DNA of 64,000 nucleotides from Marchantia polymorpha subsp. ruderalis (taxonomy: Eukaryota > Streptophyta > Marchantiopsida > Marchantiales > Marchantiaceae): positions 10,560,001 to 10,624,000 of the forward strand of contig AP031357.1 in NCBI GenBank assembly GCA_037833965.1. The letters are read 5' to 3'. Below the pieces are notes generated by a model that saw only the letters and a program-made list of their open reading frames with translations, did no database searches and was not told where the DNA came from. Numbering within the stretch: the stretch's first letter is position 1; each line of letters opens with the position of its first letter. The translations under genes and the position numbers were made by a program. Below, one piece after another: positions 3,001 to 55,527 of this stretch.

Positions 3001-6000
3001 AATCACCTAAAATCTTAGTAGTAATAGCCAATCCAAACATGCAACCAAACCAACTGAACTCTTGCAATCAGCCAACGTGAATCACTCATTATCTAGCACA
3101 TTGATGACGGAAAAATAATCAATTGCATATGTATTATTGATAAGGTGTATCAACAAAATTCAAATGTATAGTTTTTTTATCATTGATGAAATTAAATATA
3201 TAATCCAACGACATATTATTGATTTGTGAAATAATTGTTTCATATCTTCATAAATATAGATTTTTTTAACATATCATCTATGCTATAACATTTCATGAAC
3301 AATATTTGAAAAGTTCATCTTTCATATTATTATTATATTTAAAATTTGTTAAATTTAATATCATTCTATATCTTTATGAAATTATATCCCATATAAACCA
3401 TATATATAGAAACAAACTCCATATATCATAAGTAATTTAAAAATAATATTAAATTATTATTTGATTATAAATTTAATTATTATTTTTAAATTAAATATTA
3501 CAAATGACATATATTAAATTAACTTTGATTTTAATATTATTTATTTATATAAATATTATTTTTAATTTTATTTTCAGAAAATATTTTTATTGAAAATAGT
3601 ATTTCTATTTACAAATGTAAAAGATAAGCAATATCTAGATAACTTAGTAAGACATATATTTTTAAAATTTTATAAAAAATATTTAAATAAGTCATTTATT
3701 ATATTATATTTTATAATTTTACTTGCATGTGAAAATAATAAAATAAATTCTTCAATAGATCAAAATAATCTTTTAAAATTCAAATGCATCTTTCATGATA
3801 AGTACATTATTAATTGTATTTAATGTTTTTTAATTGACATATCAAATGCAAAATCTATAACTAGATGTAATCCAAATACATGATTTGAATTGAATGAAAT
3901 TATATACTAATATCTTCATGGATGAAGCATGTGTGATTTTTTCAGAAATATTTTTAGAAATTTGATTTGCAAATGATATCGTAATAGAATATCAAGCACG
4001 AGTGTGTAATCTTCGTCTGCACAATTTTGGATTAGGCATGTGTTGTTGTTTGGAGACACTTTTGGAAATTTGATTTGCAAATGACATCGTAGTAACCTAG
4101 CAAGCACAAGTTGGTTATCTTCGTCTGCACAATTTTAAATGAAACATGTGTGGTTGTTCGGAAATACTTTTAAAAATTTGATTCTCAAATGATATCATAG
4201 TAACGTAACAAGCACGAGTATGTAATCGTTGTCTGCAAAATTTTGGATTAAGCATGTGTGGTTGTTAAGAGATACTCTTGTAAATTTGTTTTACACATGA
4301 TATCCCATTAATGAAGCAAGTACGAGTTGGTTATATTAGTGTTCACAATTTAAACACAACAAATGAGTTGATGTATACAATATATAATACATTTTTCATC
4401 GCTAAAGATCATTGAAATAAAAATTACTTATGAATTTTTTTGATGTAAGTTAAAATTAATTTGTAATTACTAAAATAAATTAATGTATAAATATTCAAAT
4501 TTTGAAAATAAAAACAAAAAAAATTTTAATTCCTTAAAAATGATTTATATTATAATTTATGAGTTGTTTCATGTATGCAATTACTTTGTAATCTTATATT
4601 TTGGCTAAAAAAAATATAAATGGTTTAATAAATTTTTAATTTTATTATTCATTATTTTAATTTTAATAATATTTTACAAAATATTTTTTAAATATTTTTT
4701 CAATAAGAATTATATATCAAAAAATTATGTATTTTTTATTTTATAAAAATAGTTATAAATAATATTTGCATTCATATTGCATAAATCATATATATGTTAT
4801 AAAGATTTTGATATTATTTATTAATGTCAGTCTAATTGATGGGAATCTTAATTTTATATGTTTTAAATGACATTTATTCAAAATAGATTTCTTATTTGGG
4901 ATTTAAATTTTGATTTTCATTATCTACTTTTTTAAATTTGATTTTATCCCGTGCATGGTGTTGTAATTTTACTTAAAAGTTGAAAATTGAATATAAATAT
5001 TATATATAAAATATTTTTTATTATAAAATTGCTTTAAATCATTCTTATTTTTACTTTCTAACATTTTTATGAAATAAACTTTTTTGGGTTAAAATATCTA
5101 TTTTCAGTTGCAATTTATTGTATCAAATTTATATCAAATTTATCAAATTTATTGTATTTGTAGTTCATCTTGTTCAATCATCAAATGAAATAGTAGAAAA
5201 TATGAAAAAACTTACTTAATGTAAATTATAAATTTTATTATTTTTATGTGTAAAACCAATGTCAAAAGTCAAAGTTACTAAATTTTTATGTTGTTTTGAA
5301 ATGTTGATGAAGAATATTTAATTTTTTCATATCATATTTTAAAAATCAAATGAATATCTTTATCGCTTCTTCTCGGCTACGAGACTCGTGACCGACAACA
5401 GGAGATAGCACCCTACTCCCTAGTTGGTGAGAAATTCAACGGAGTCATAGCACAACAGAGCATTCAAGCTTCCGACCTACCATACCTACTTTAGCTTTTG
5501 TGTTTGTAATTGGTGACGTGAAGTTCATGGAAAAGGTGAGAAAGATATTGAAAGTTGGTAAAAATTGAAAGACTCGGCGAGTCGCGGTAAAAATTTTGTT
5601 CTGACATGTCATATGATTGTTTTAATAATTTGTGTGATCGTTTTAACATTTCATTAAATTTATACATTATATCAAGAACTAAACAGTGTCAAAAGCATGA
5701 TTGGCAAAATCATATATTACATTATTTCACGTCAAAAACAATATTTTATAGTCGATAAAACATCATAATGTCAACATGTTTATTATGTATATTTTACCCT
5801 CTTATATATACTATAAATTTGAAATTTTGAGATTTTTCAGATGTTGATTTAATTACTTTTAATATATCTATGATCAAATTTAGATCAATGATGATTAATT
5901 TATGTTATTATAACTTAAAAAAACAATTTTTTTCTAAGTTTTGGGTTTGATGTCCGATATGTTTGAATTGAATGTTGTTACACAAATTTTTTTAAATGAA

Positions 6001-50206: not shown

Positions 50207-52303
50207 TTAGTGAAGGTGGGCCGAGCTCCCTCCGTTGGAGCCTTCCATGAAGTTGCTGGTGAAGAGATTGGACAGCATCGAGGACTGGGGGAGAAGGCTC
50301 GAGCCTGCTCCAGAGTAGGAGTTCGAGGGCGTGCCGTCCGACTCGTCGGCGATGCGGCCGTGCATGCCCGTCATCACGTGGCCCAGGCTGTTGCCATTGC
50401 CTCCCCCGCCCATGCCGGACGAGAGCCCTGAGAGCCCCATTCCACTCCCCATCCCGGAGCTATTGCCCGACAGATTGTAGCCCGAGGAGTTGTTCACAGA
50501 CTGCTGCTGCTGCTGCTGCACGAGGTTCGGGTTGGAGGAGCTCAGATCGATGGAGTCGAGCTCGCGGTGGCCGTCCACATCGCCCAGAGGCACGGCGGGC
50601 GTGTGGCCCTGGAACAGAGCAATGTGGCCCAGCAGCTTGTCCTTGCGGGAGAAGGTGGTCCCGCACGAGCATTGCCACTTATCGCAGCCGCAGTGCTTCT
50701 CGTGCGTCTTCAGATCCGCCACCACCGAGAATTTCTTGCTCTTGCACTTCTGGCACGCCAGCATCTTGGGGCAGTGGCTGCGCCTGTAGTGGTTCTTCAC
50801 GCACAGCATCGTCTTCAAGGGCGCGAATTTGCGGTGCTTTTTGTTGCGCTTGCAGCCGGCGTAAGGGCACGAGTAGCGCCGCTCTTTCACAGCTGCCTGA
50901 TCGTGCACAGCTTTGTCGGGCCGGGCCAAGGCCGCAGGAGTCTTGTACTCATCGCCGTGGCCCCTCATGTGCATCCGCAGATTGGCATCGCGCTTGAACC
51001 CCTTCCCGCAAATCTCACAGAAATGAGTGTGCTCTGCTAGAATCTCGATGGCGTCCATCTCGATGAGCTCGTACTCCGAGGGATCGAGCTTCTCGCCCTC
51101 GCCGTCATCGTCCTCGTCCCGCGCGCGTCTTCGGCCTCCGTCCTCATCCATCTGCGGGGGCGAGTTCGCCATGGACGAATGCGACGACGGCCTGTTGGAC
51201 ATGACGCTGGATTCCATTCCCCCGCCCGCAGTCCCGAGAGTGTTCCTCGCAATGCCATTCCCCATCTGGTTGCTGAGCCCGCTGCCGAGCTCCTTGTTCC
51301 TCAAATTCTGCCCGGAATTCGGATTTCCATTCCCTCCATCGCAGCCGAACACTCCACTCAGGCCTCCCACGAGACCTGCCCCCAGTTGCCCCGGAAGAGT
51401 TGCGGCCAGATTGTTGTTGCTCCCATTGCCTTGCATGCCCGAGAAGCCGCTGGCCATGGAATTGCCCATTGCGGGATTGTTCATGGAGGGCGGCCCCTGC
51501 TGCTGGAAAAAATTGAAGGCCTGCGGGGGAATTGACTCGCCCAGGTGCTGGATGATCTCGCTCAGCTGGTTGTTGTTGGGAGGGCCCGGGAAGTTGTTGC
51601 TGCCCATGGGGCCCTGCTGCTGATGATTGGGGACGGACGGGCTCTGCTGGGGAGCTTGAGCCTGACAGGGAAGCATCGAGGTGGCGACAGCGGCGAGCTG
51701 GTTGATCATGTTGATGGTGCTGGCTGCGGCTGTCTGCTGTTGCTGGGCCTGGTTGTTGCCGGCGCCCTGGGCTTGACCAGAGGCCAAATACGGGACGATG
51801 GCCTGAAGATGGACGATTTTTTGCTGGATTATCTGCAGGGCGGACATTATTGCCTCCTGGCCCTGCGAGCCTTGCAGGCCCATTGCCATGTTGTTTTTGT
51901 TGAACAAGTCCTGCCCCGACTGCGGAACTTGGCTCATGAAATGAGCGTTGTTCTGGTTATTGTTCTGATTGAAGGACGGTCCTCCTCCTCCGACCACGCC
52001 CGGGCTCTGCAGAAAATTAGCATACCCTCGTTCGTTGCCGCCTCCACCACCGCTCATGGTTTGAGCCTGCGCGAAGGCCTGCGAGTGGGACTGGTGATTC
52101 TGGACCTGCTGCTGCTGTGGGTGAACACCCAGGGAGAAGCCCATGTTAGATGGAGGTGCAGGATTCTGCTGCTGTGCGTAGGTCAGCTGCTGGCCGAGGA
52201 GAGAGAACTTGTTGAGATTTCCTCCTCCTCCTCCGCCTCCTCCTGCACCCCGAGGGCTCGAGGGATGGCGACCCTCCGAGCCCTGGCCTCCTCCTTGCTG
52301 CAT
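50207..52303 (-). CDS. STOP1: STOP1-like C2H2 zinc-finger transcription factor, single coding exon
   Basis: A 698-residue nuclear transcription factor of the SENSITIVE TO PROTON RHIZOTOXICITY 1 family. In flowering plants these activate genes for proton and aluminium tolerance and organic-acid export. Four zinc fingers typical of the family are present: C429-C432-H445-H449, C479-C484-H505-H510 with the long basic insert, C517-C520-H534-H537, and C545-C547-H560-H567. Residues about 153-174 ([19 protein letters not shown]) form the family's upstream helix. Residues 1-380 are long, low-complexity and Gln/Gly/Asn-rich, longer than in flowering-plant members. An acidic run (386-404) precedes the fingers, and the tail after 568 has a Gln run and Gly/Ser-rich sequence. 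One uninterrupted coding exon is usual for STOP1. The ATG at 52,303 opens the frame and no ATG lies between it and the predicted acceptor at 52,403. A competing acceptor-like CTAACATGCAG overlaps the start. If used, translation would begin at Met54. Confidence 0.95.
50508..50522 (+). repeat. CTG/CAG run encoding polyglutamine
   Basis: A short triplet run inside the STOP1-like CDS encodes the Gln tract at about residues 596-601. Similar CAG-rich coding recurs through the N-terminal half of the protein. Confidence 0.8.
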
Positions 52304-52402
52304 GTTAGTGAATGCTCTCCCTTCTCTTCACCTCCACTTCCACCGATGGTTGACTCAGTGCCCTCTCCTCTCTTCACCCCCACTTCCACTGATTACCTCC
52401 AC

Positions 52403-52539
52403 CTGCGTCCATCGACTCATCAGCATTTCGGCATTGCGCCACGGACCCGATGCAAGACACCCAAACAAGCAATCCACAAATTGATGCTCCCAACAAAACA
52501 ACAAACGAGAGGAATCGGAGGGGATGGCAGCAGGCTCAC
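52403..52539 (-). other. Predicted 137-bp leader intron of the STOP1-like gene
   Basis: The coding strand shows donor AAG|GTGAGC at 52,539 and acceptor GGACGCAG|GTGG ending at 52,403, with a CTGAT branch-like element 16 nt upstream. All four ATG triplets between the donor and the main start (at about 52,410, 52,418, 52,424 and 52,432) lie inside this interval. Splicing would therefore make the STOP1 ATG the next start after the upstream ORFs. This is a sequence prediction, not confirmed by RNA. Confidence 0.55.
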
Positions 52540-52542
52540 CTT

Positions 52543-52668
52543 CTAGCGTGGATACTGCCTCACGCTGTATGATATATAGAAAAGGTCCGTTCGGAGGAAC
52601 CTGCAATCCGTGAGTACGAGAAGATCCTTGGGCTGCAGATTCAACAACGGGTTGGGATAGCCCGGCAT
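52543..52668 (-). CDS. 41-codon upstream ORF (uORF) of the STOP1-like gene
   Basis: The frame starts ATGCCGGGC and ends at TAG (52,543-52,545), 3 nt before the predicted splice donor. The peptide begins MPGYPNPLL and ends YSVRQYPR. It lies in the leader of the STOP1-like transcript if the leader extends this far. The -3 base is a T in weak context (TAGGGGATG gives -3 G if counted as GGG), so initiation strength is uncertain. Two other uORFs overlap it or precede it in other frames: 13 codons from 52,682 and 23 codons from 52,743. The exact stop just before the exon end is suggestive, but conservation of the peptide is untested. Confidence 0.4.
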   Translation of the reverse strand: MPGYPNPLLNLQPKDLLVLTDCRFLRTDLFYISYSVRQYPR

Positions 52669-52688
52669 CCCCTATCGGTCATCAAATA

Positions 52689-52817
52689 TCAATATTCTTC
52701 TGACAGAGAGAATTGTCTGTGCCCGGTATTCTGCAATTGCCATATATCACGAACCTTCGGATTGACCTCTTGCAGTAAAACGGTCCGACCAGGAAAGAGA
52801 AGGGAGAGCTCTAGCAT
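52689..52817 (-). CDS. 42-codon upstream ORF of the STOP1-like gene
   Basis: This is the first ATG after the start-stop array that is not followed at once by a stop. It begins MLELSLLFPG and ends SEEY before TGA. It lies between the AUG-stop array and the 41-codon uORF. It would translate only if the leader is unspliced here. Acceptor-like ATTGCAG strings occur in the neighbouring 250 bp, so it might instead be intronic. Confidence 0.3.
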   Translation of the reverse strand: MLELSLLFPGRTVLLQEVNPKVRDIWQLQNTGHRQFSLSEEY

Positions 52818-52829
52818 CCGCCCTGTGAC

Positions 52830-53657
52830 CTACATGATCACCCTTATCTCTGCGCTCTCTCCAGATCTGTGAGCTTTACGCGTCCCACCAATACTTCGAA
52901 AACTCAGATCTCTTGCTACATGATTGAACCGATTACTCCACTTCTTCACTATCTCCCTCCGATATTCGGCGTACAGCCGCAGCTGCGGGACTCCAGTCGG
53001 CACGTGTTTACATAACCTCCTTTCCAGATTGCTTACATAATCAGCTACTCGATTCGGCTCTCGTGGGCAGGTGTTTACATGATCGACTAAGTCTCTGGAC
53101 TGTGAGTGATAGATTACATGATCAACTCTCCCGACGATTAGGCCAGATTGATTACATAATCAGCTCTCGGATGACCGACAGATGATTTCAGTAATGAACT
53201 TTCTCAAAGAGCGTCAGAAAAACAGATTACATGATATCACGGGTTAGACTCCGCCTCCCACGATTTACATCCTCCGCTGCGATGAAATCCTTGCTCTGTG
53301 TTCTACATAATCAGCTGTAGTGACTCCCCCGAGGCTCGACAACTACATGCTAATCAGAAGACAGTCCGAGAGATGAAAGTTTACTGAGCGACCTCGATGC
53401 TCCCTAAACCGCCAGACTACATGTCCAGAACCGCAGTCCCCTGGTAAATCACAGGCTCACGTCCCTCGTGAAAGAATGCTCCTCGTCGTCCGACCAATTA
53501 CATAGCCAATACCGCAACGGCCAATCTCCAGACAGTGCCCTCGCTTTATCCGCTACTCTGAAAGGCAAATCTACATCACAAGCTGCTGCTCTTGGCCCAA
53601 ATCCCCTGTCCCGCAAATCGAGCTCGTCGGTCGCTGGCAAAGGCAGAGCAATTACAT
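52830..53657 (-). promoter_or_regulatory. Array of 15 start-stop (AUG-UAA/UAG) minimal uORFs in the STOP1-like leader
   Basis: On the coding strand, ATG plus an immediate stop occurs with the ATG complement (CAT) starting at 52833, 52919, 53011, 53036, 53078, 53117, 53155, 53230, 53268, 53306, 53346, 53420, 53501, 53574 and 53655. Nine use TAA, six TAG and none TGA. No other ATG occurs on this strand from 52,836 to 53,978. Spacings are mostly 38-42 nt or 73-81 nt, a period of about 38-40. The best-preserved copies share AGCTGATYATGTAA. The -3 base is A in ten, G in four and C in one. AUG-stops are known in the Arabidopsis NIP5;1 leader, where they stall ribosomes in response to boron. Function here is inferred. 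A cluster of transcription-factor sites is the alternative. Confidence 0.8.
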
Positions 53658-53699
53658 CAGCCAATCTGCTGGGGCCGGTGCGGTGGTGTGCTGTGCTGC

Positions 53700-54200
53700 G
53701 ATGGCAGACGAGAGAGCAAGCAAGTGAATGGAGTGATCGATAGAGACGTACAAAGACACAAGACAGAGAGACAAGCAAGCAGGCAGGCAGGCAGGCACGG
53801 AGGGAGTGATCAATCTCACGTGAGCCGTCAGCGGGCTACTTCACTGCTCTATAGCTCTAGCGGGTGGCTCAGTCAGGCACTCACTCCCTCACTCACACAC
53901 TCGCTCAGGGGGCTGGTCACACTCTCAGGAGAGAGAGTGAGGAGGAAGGGAAAGTGTTGCTCGACAACAACAGAAGAGCATCAGCATCATCAGACAGCAG
54001 CAGCCGCGATATGAAATCTGAACCCTAGGGAAAAGGCTCCCCCACCTCACTCACTCACAACCCTGCTGCTGCTGCTCGCTCGCAACTCGGTCGCACTTCT
54101 GCTCGAGTCTGTCTGTCTCTTCTTCTCTGCTGCTGCTGCTGCTGCTGCTGCTGCGTCGTCCTCGTTCCACGATGAGATCCAAAAATGCTCACACACGACC
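53700..54200 (-). promoter_or_regulatory. Probable transcription start region of the STOP1-like gene
   Basis: The coding strand becomes CT-rich (complement of GAGAGAGAGTGAGGAGG at about 53,930-53,946), typical of plant leader starts. An AACCCTAG telo-box-type motif lies at 54,021-54,028. No TATA box is seen. Three clustered ATGs at about 53,979-53,990 would open a 21-codon uORF if transcription began upstream of them, so a start near 53,930-53,980 would give the cleanest leader. Confidence 0.4.
54127..54154 (+). repeat. (CTG)9 microsatellite
   Basis: Nine CTG units, preceded by a shorter CTG run at 54,063-54,075. The coding strand of the STOP1-like gene reads CAG here. It is upstream of the likely start, in the promoter. 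Confidence 0.9.
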
Positions 54201-55360
54201 ACACCTGCCCCTAATCTCACTCTACCTCACTCAAGATCTGTGCTCAATCTCCACGCCCTCCGTTCATGGATCTAGTACAACCTCATCCAGCGAAAATGAC
54301 AGCTAACGACTTCCGTGAACTCAATCGAATACACCTCCCCTCGTCTCCACCCCGTCTCCTCAGCTCGGCTCGGCTCCGTTCCACTCCACTCCACTCCGCT
54401 CCGCCACCCTCAGTTCATGTAGCAGTCAGTCTGTCAGTCAGTCGTCCTCGTCCTTCGTCCTTCGTCGCTGCCGTGCCCTGGCCCGATCCGCTGTGCTGTG
54501 CTGCGCTGCGTTCCGCTCGGTGCCGACTCGACTGCTCTCGCCTGTGACTAAGCTCCGAAAAGCACGAGGATTCGACGTCTGTCGAATTTATTGGAGCATC
54601 GGGGGGTGGGGGGATGGCGAGAGGGGGTGAGGGAGACGCTGTGGCGCTCCGCGGAGCGGCTCGCAGCGTCGGGACCGGGCGTCGGGCGTCGGCCGCCGTG
54701 CCCAACCGCCTCGGGGCTCGGTTGACCCGTTCGCCCCCGCGCGTGCCATGTACGTGCACCCGTTCCTGATTTTTGGGAGGCCCTGGGGCAGCAGCAGCGG
54801 GCCAGCGGGCCCTTGGGCCCTTGGGCCCTTCGGCTCATGATTCTGCAACGATTCTTCTTCTCAGATCTCGCTCGGCTGCTCCCCCTTGAGCTTCGGAAGT
54901 TCACTCTTCTGCTTCCTTCACAGCACAGCGCGCTGCCTCCCCGTCGTCCCCCTCCCCTCGCTCTCTATCTCTCTCTCTCTGTCCCTTTCCTTCGTTCCAG
55001 CTTCGCTCAGCGCTTGCGCGTCGGGAGGGTCTCGCTCGAAATATCTGACTCCGCCTCGCCTCTGGCATCGACTTCTCATGATTTCTCGCATGCCACATCC
55101 AAAGTGTCAGCTGAATTTCCAGCGTGTGCTGTGCCTCGTTCCGATGCCAGCCGTCAAGCTCTCGTTCGCTCATGTTCACCTCTATTGCCTTACTCTGTAC
55201 TGCATTGGATGTAACAGTGTCCACGCATGGATGACACTTTGCCTCACGAGCCACGGTGCCCATTCAGCTCCGAGCGCTCTGTGTTGCTGGGTATTTCTTG
55301 CGATCCCATCCCCTCGAGTCAAGTGAAGACAACTACAGTAATCGAGTTGTGGTTTACATA
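54200..55360. other. GC-rich promoter-side island
   Basis: GC-rich DNA upstream of the STOP1-like gene, with short C-rich and CT-rich runs. Overlapping frames on both strands show no domain. It may hold a divergent transcript to the right, but I cannot support a gene. Confidence 0.4.
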
Positions 55361-55527
55361 AATTACCCATGACATGGTTTTGGAGAGCTTTATCAGCCAT
55401 GCTCTTGGATGTATGGCAAGTGTAGTTGTAGCCAAGTTCTCGCATTGCAGAGTGGTGAGAGATGAAATTTTTGTTACTCTAGGTTTAGAGCAAGCAGTAT
55501 GCGATAACCTCATGCTGATTAATAGAG

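Follow-up and report, generated by a model that had tools for sequence, protein, structure and literature searches.

The region upstream of a STOP1-type zinc-finger gene in Marchantia polymorpha carries an array of 15 minimal upstream open reading frames (uORFs), each consisting of an AUG followed directly by UAA or UAG. The array occupies positions 52830..53657 on the minus strand of the window, which is the whole 64-kb stretch of DNA that was analysed, and all 15 sites (15/15) read ATGTAR. We consider it probable, from the pattern in the DNA, that 14 to 15 of these minimal uORFs lie in the mature leader, are kept by selection, and act as a multi-step translational gate. The start-stop element itself is known, whereas the number of sites, their regularity, and the target gene appear to be new. 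No report of uORFs of STOP1 or of start-stop arrays was found in the titles and abstract openings of a collection that lies outside most subscription papers.

On the minus strand between plus coordinates 53978 and 52830 (1,149 bases, 51% GC) there are 15 ATGs, and a stop codon follows directly in 15/15. In the direction of transcription, the A of the ATG is at 53657, 53576, 53503, 53422, 53348, 53308, 53270, and 53232 for sites 1 to 8, and at 53157, 53119, 53080, 53038, 53013, 52921, and 52835 for sites 9 to 15. The original prediction held that every ATG over about 1.14 kb is a start-stop, and this was confirmed by a recount and by 5,000 dinucleotide-preserving shuffles of the 1,149-base stretch, which served as the chance model. 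The shuffles contained on average 22.2 ATGs and 0.47 ATGTAR, with a maximum of 4 ATGTAR. None of the 5,000 reached 15 ATGTAR, and in none were all ATGs start-stops. The same prediction expected a stop after about 3 in 64 random ATGs, which is too low, as the actual chance rate in the window is about 7%. Across the whole window, array included, start-stops make up 87 of 1,294 ATGs on the plus strand (6.7%) and 106 of 1,388 on the minus strand (7.6%), and the longest run of consecutive start-stops elsewhere in the window is 3. Twenty further 10-kb regions of the M. polymorpha assembly, taken at round coordinates and read on both strands (200 kb), were used as a control. The longest start-stop run in this sample was again 3, and the highest number of ATGTAR per 830 bases was 5. 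Runs of start-stops like the array are thus not common in the genome, as judged from the 200-kb sample.

The sites resemble each other in their stop codons and in their close context. Nine end in TAA, six in TAG, and none in TGA, while ATGTGA accounts for 169 of the 446 start-stops in the 200-kb control; the chance of finding none among 15 is about 0.0008. Common descent of the sites or a preference for UAA and UAG could explain the missing ATGTGA. At position -3, A occurs 10 times, G 4 times, and C once, and a purine is therefore present in 14 of the 15 sites, as had been claimed. Position +4 is always U, as in any start-stop. With the -3 position as the only measure, the sites are one-codon uORFs in a strong Kozak context, a feature of the stuORFs that depend on DENR-MCTS1. 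Each uORF encodes methionine only, which places the array outside the conserved-peptide uORFs (CPuORFs). Around the invariant core, the site profile is AGCTGATY-ATGTAR, and beyond -8 and +7 every position holds at most 0.48 bits.

The absence of all other ATGs is the second line of evidence. The zone from 52830 to 53978 on the minus strand has no ATG other than the 15 start-stops, and this depletion marks it as the putative exon 1 of the 5' leader. Outside the 15 sites, 0 ATGs were observed against 14.7 expected from the zone's own dinucleotides; by z-score none of the other 64 trinucleotides is as depleted as ATG, and the Poisson chance is 4e-7. Nowhere else in the window, on plus or minus strand, do ordinary ATGs stay away over a longer distance (1,164 b). 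The 200-kb control has comparable gaps of as much as 980 b, so length by itself proves nothing, and the argument is carried by the depletion relative to local composition. On the opposite strand, the same 1,149 bases contain 16 ATGs, none of them ATGTAR. Every TGTAA or TGTAG on the minus strand of the stretch has an A before it, which indicates that the start-stop as a whole is the unit. The simplest single explanation is a process that reads AUG on the minus strand, and the stretch is therefore most likely an exonic 5' leader scanned by ribosomes. From these features, the array probably lies within the mature 5' leader. The original prediction named two situations that would oppose it, namely an array upstream of the transcription start or one wholly within an intron; both are made unlikely by the strand-specific absence of ATGs.

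The same features bear on two other explanations. The first is that selection purges ordinary upstream ATGs from a long leader, and that functionless start-stops stay behind as the least harmful ones. The lack of other ATGs in the stretch fits such purging, but it leaves unexplained why 15 ATGTAR are present where 0.47 are expected, why ATGTGA is missing, and why the sites fall on a spacing lattice (see below). We regard these tolerated remnants as improbable. The second explanation is an element that acts as DNA or as an RNA motif, such as a repeated transcription factor site (GATTATGTAATC-like) or a splice, poly(A), or RNA-binding motif built on UGUAA. Some sites form a near inverted repeat (GATTA-TG-TAATC at 53157, found by eye), GTAR resembles the core of a splice donor, with moderate donor scores at several sites, and the motif CTGATTATGTAATC occurs at 99 places against 44 for a reversed control. 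A DNA-level element is nevertheless hard to reconcile with 15/15 sites on one strand and 0 on the other. Moreover, the conserved core is ATGTAR, with TGTAR never found without its A, and the missing ATGs would stay unexplained. There is accordingly little probability in this reading, and a poly(A)/UGUAA or PUF-type motif in particular was rejected on the ground that TGTAR always carries the A. A search of Rfam in 52000-55500 gave no match at gathering scores, and a known RNA family was rejected on this basis.

The spacing of the sites is not arbitrary. Successive sites are 81, 73, 81, 74, 40, 38, 38, 75, 38, 39, 42, 25, 92, and 86 nt apart. Thirteen of the 15 sites fit a 38.5-nt lattice at phases between -0.03 and 0.12, with a coherence of 0.78, and the two off-lattice sites are 53013 (phase 0.73) and 52835 (phase 0.35). 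The lattice was tested after the spacings had been seen; the control included the period scan, with the same grid for the random sets. Random placements with the same ends were as coherent as the real sites in 16 of 10,000 trials when the spacing had to be at least 20, and in 50 of 10,000 when it had to be at least 25, the smallest observed gap. Self-similarity of the masked sequence was highest at a shift of 38 (0.311, mean 0.256), followed by a shift of 77 (0.295), which barely exceeds the values at shifts 24 and 12. Two lattice slots hold no ATG: one at about 53192 (53184..53200, minus strand, phase 0.08) with a weak profile score of 0.9, and one at about 53386 (53378..53394, minus strand, phase 0.04) with a weak score of 1.3. 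These empty slots may, tentatively, be decayed units.

The flanks of the sites share less than their cores. Mean identity between flanks is 11.6 of 38 positions over 105 pairs, against a background of 9.5 for random places. Among these 105 pairs, the best is 53157/53038 with 21 of 38 (0.0002 for one pair), and 53080/53013 reaches 20 of 38. We read this as an old tandem amplification, a likely origin from the sequence pattern, in which the flanks have drifted and the hexamer has been kept. A decaying minisatellite whose unit contained ATGTAA by chance and which was under no selection would also produce a 38.5-nt lattice, a self-similarity peak at shift 38, and some pairs with common flanks. This neutral origin is very improbable, since the flanks are near background similarity while the 15 cores are intact, and neutral decay would not spare a hexamer and at the same time remove all other ATGs. 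In addition, Tandem Repeats Finder reported no array at the start-stop region, and an ordinary tandem repeat was rejected for this reason. Elsewhere in the window, a tandem repeat of 108 b in 4 copies, also reported as a 216-b unit, is present at 3919-4351. A perfect (CTG)n run on the plus strand (CAG on the STOP1 coding strand) lies at 54127-54154, upstream of the presumed leader.

The genome (241 Mb in 9 contigs) was searched with an 851-base array query, with very common words skipped, and one other place was returned. It is a fragment in AT-rich DNA, some 195 bases long and 78% identical (C3 13527134-13527326), which matches window positions 53602-53412 and lies on the minus strand at 5327-5135 of the region C3:13522000-13531900. 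Two of its three start-stops are kept, one of them as ATGTAA instead of ATGTAG, and the third is now TTGTAA. The fragment also has an ordinary ATG at a position where the array has none. It appears to be a decayed dispersed copy, and its pattern is as expected from loss of constraint, although it is one small example. The 99 genome places of the 14-base motif CTGATTATGTAATC were counted with at most 1 mismatch. Eight of them were examined; one is this array, and the other seven have no array (longest start-stop run 2).

The gene downstream of the array was predicted to be of the STOP1 type, and this assignment was borne out. The main coding sequence (50207..52303, minus strand) encodes a C2H2 zinc-finger transcription factor of 698 aa. 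Two Pfam families of STOP2-like zinc fingers scored above the cut-off (PF23118 at 6.3e-20 and PF23115 at 3.2e-18), and the protein carries the STOP-type set of C2H2 fingers. Among the best 120 of 810 matches, the closest named relative is Mapa_009757 of Marchantia paleacea with 88% identity, and the next relative is R1flu_006733 of Riccia fluitans with 61%. The M. paleacea protein has the same N-terminus, starting MQQGGG, which supports the start codon at 52303. A study of phosphate starvation in M. polymorpha names MpSTOP2 (Mapoly0083s0069) (PMC7672586).

The position of the array upstream of this gene therefore stands, although the original prediction did not mention that eight ordinary ATGs precede the coding start at 52303. 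These lie between the array and the coding sequence at 52817, 52743, 52682, 52668, 52434, 52426, 52420, and 52412. In an unspliced transcript, the ATG at 52817 would start a 42-codon uORF. Splice sites were scored by hand with approximate plant frequencies. A predicted first leader intron (52633..52833, minus strand) has the donor CAT|GTAGGT (6.9) and the acceptor CTGCAG|CCC (6.5). It would remove the ATGs at 52817, 52743, 52682, and 52668 and would cut the 15th start-stop. All 15 sites are thus real as sequence, but the last one, at 52835, overlaps a possible splice donor and may be absent from the mRNA. Alternative acceptors exist for this intron: 52565 is equally good, and 52601 would create one ATG. 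A predicted second intron (52403..52539, minus strand) uses the donor AAG|GTGAGC (8.7), which is the best in the scored region, and the acceptor ACGCAG|GTG, which is modest (4.5). This intron would remove the ATGs at 52434, 52426, 52420, and 52412.

The two introns could together remove all eight ordinary ATGs, and this is a prediction of the splice model. With both introns out and an assumed start at 53950, the leader would be 1,309 nt long with the acceptor at 52633 or 1,241 nt with the one at 52565. It would contain 14 AUGs, all of them start-stops, and 280 or 212 nt, respectively, would separate the last of them from the main AUG. Across the models, leader length ranges from 1.2 to 1.65 kb with the same assumed start. 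The leader is free of ordinary AUGs in 2 of the 26 splice combinations modelled and retains 1 to 9 in the other 24; some of the combinations have introns too short to be possible. Other sites compete with those chosen. The donors at 52754 and 52396 (7.6 each) outscore the first intron's donor at 52833, and the acceptors at 53558 (7.3) and 53441 (7.0), inside the array, outscore 52633. Splicing within or around the array may therefore be an alternative under the same scoring. The leader fold was less stable than 20 of 20 shuffles (z +2.07), and strong RNA structure was rejected as an explanation; weak folding suits scanning.

Regulation by AUG-stops is proven in plants (PMC11915504, PMC11062462), and a gate function is the likely role of the array as judged from its sequence. 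A scanning ribosome would meet a start-stop every 38 nt or so, or at a multiple of this distance. It would initiate at some or many of them and terminate without elongating, and would have to rescan after every termination before it arrives at the STOP1 start codon. A steep fall in output would follow from reduced post-termination rescanning or from a ligand that holds ribosomes on the AUG-stop, and stalled ribosomes could also set off mRNA decay. Direct passage past 15 sites was calculated as (1-p)^15, where p is the capture per site, and amounts to 46% at p 0.05, 3.5% at 0.2, and 0.03% at 0.42. For one mammalian uORF, a start-stop of weak context showed 42% engagement in vitro (PMC11790910). 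Direct passage is small unless capture is very weak, and hence STOP1 synthesis would need repeated rescanning or a shorter transcript. Against the gate stand the long leader and the eight ordinary ATGs, which require splicing out or bypass. Any condition in which transcription starts downstream of the array would lead to its bypass. The footprint of an 80S ribosome is about 30 nt. With gaps of at least 38 nt in 13 of 14 cases and of 25 nt in the other, there would be room for 80S ribosomes on most pairs of adjacent sites at the same time. We infer the exonic, translated, and selected status of the array from its composition, and the factor that would tune the gate (boric acid, DENR-MCTS1, or another) is hypothetical.

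The main candidate besides boron, by analogy with animals, is dependence on DENR-MCTS1. Start-stops would make STOP1 translation depend on factors for 40S recycling and reinitiation, as is the case for animal stuORFs, and this is a reasonable possibility that we hold at somewhat below even. Reporters with an ATGTAA stuORF require DENR-MCTS1, and this dependence tends upward with uORF copy number, although the effect is small and covers 1 to 3 copies (PMC5473865). At a capture of about 42%, a fraction of 0.0003 of the ribosomes would bypass all 15 sites directly, and rescanning would then need to carry the flow. However, these data on DENR-MCTS1 come from animals, and at 5% capture per site 46% of the ribosomes would pass. 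The animal stuORFs and the Marchantia sites are alike in being one-codon uORFs with a purine at -3 that call for reinitiation to reach the main ORF, and they differ in number, as the copy-number reporters held 1 to 3 copies (PMC5473865) and the Marchantia array holds 15.

The other candidate is boron. Boric acid would hold ribosomes on the AUG-stops, as in Arabidopsis NIP5;1, and high boron would shut off STOP1 together with the boron uptake genes. The array would then be a high-gain boron sensor one step above the transporter. This reading is tentative and rather doubtful. In Arabidopsis, boric acid keeps eRF1 bound to ribosomes at an AUG-stop and sets off the decay of NIP5;1 mRNA (PMC11915504), with decay intermediates whose 5' ends lie 13-14 nt upstream of AUGUAA (PMC11915504). 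STOP1 activates NIP5;1 in the same plant (PMC11915504, citing its refs 29 and 30); as NIP5;1 is the prototype AUG-stop gene, boron is a lead. Of 153 minimal uORFs translated in Arabidopsis leaves, 119 showed more footprints under high boron (PMC11062462). On the other hand, STOP1 expression in Arabidopsis is stated to be unresponsive to boron (PMC11915504), and under high boron ribosomes also stall at the stop codons of main ORFs (PMC11062462). Because of this wider stop-codon stalling, a boron response of the array would not prove a dedicated sensor.

NIP5;1 is the closest plant parallel to the gate proposed here. Both have an AUG directly followed by UAA in more than one copy, upstream of a nutrient-related plant gene (PMC11915504, PMC7503886). 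NIP5;1 has 2 AUG-stops (PMC7503886, PMC11915504) and the Marchantia array has 15, which agrees with the earlier claim that the array exceeds the one or two of NIP5;1. NIP5;1 is a transporter, whereas the target of the Marchantia array is a transcription factor. The lattice spacing and the absence of all other ATGs are features of the Marchantia array, unlike NIP5;1. Boron responsiveness is established for the AUG-stop of NIP5;1 and hypothetical for the Marchantia array. Start-stops in human 5' UTRs belong to the same class of element, and at least one is present in 5.0% of human 5' UTRs (PMC11057154). The lineage differs, and a comparable regular array is not described in the accessible part of that source (PMC11057154). 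Beyond start-stops as such, control of the GCN4/ATF4 type combines several uORFs with reinitiation upstream of a stress transcription factor. GCN4 and ATF4 have few, functionally distinct uORFs, in contrast to the many one-codon uORFs of Marchantia.

A more far-reaching version of the gate is a graded "ribosome ratchet", which we think unlikely. A lattice of about 15 sites, spaced with just enough room for adjacent ribosomes, would turn a small change in termination or rescanning, for instance through boric acid acting on eRF1, into a steep STOP1 switch, with the gain set by the number of sites. In that case, STOP1 and not the transporter would be the level at which liverworts read boron or the state of translation termination.

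AUG-stops are a proven yet sparsely understood control device of plants. The array offers a natural test bed for how many cycles of initiation and termination a ribosome can survive and for the action of boric acid at an AUG-stop. It also allows a test of whether STOP1, which acts as a hub in acid, aluminium, and phosphate stress, is under translational control. If the array is boron-responsive, Marchantia would have its sensor one level above the Arabidopsis one.
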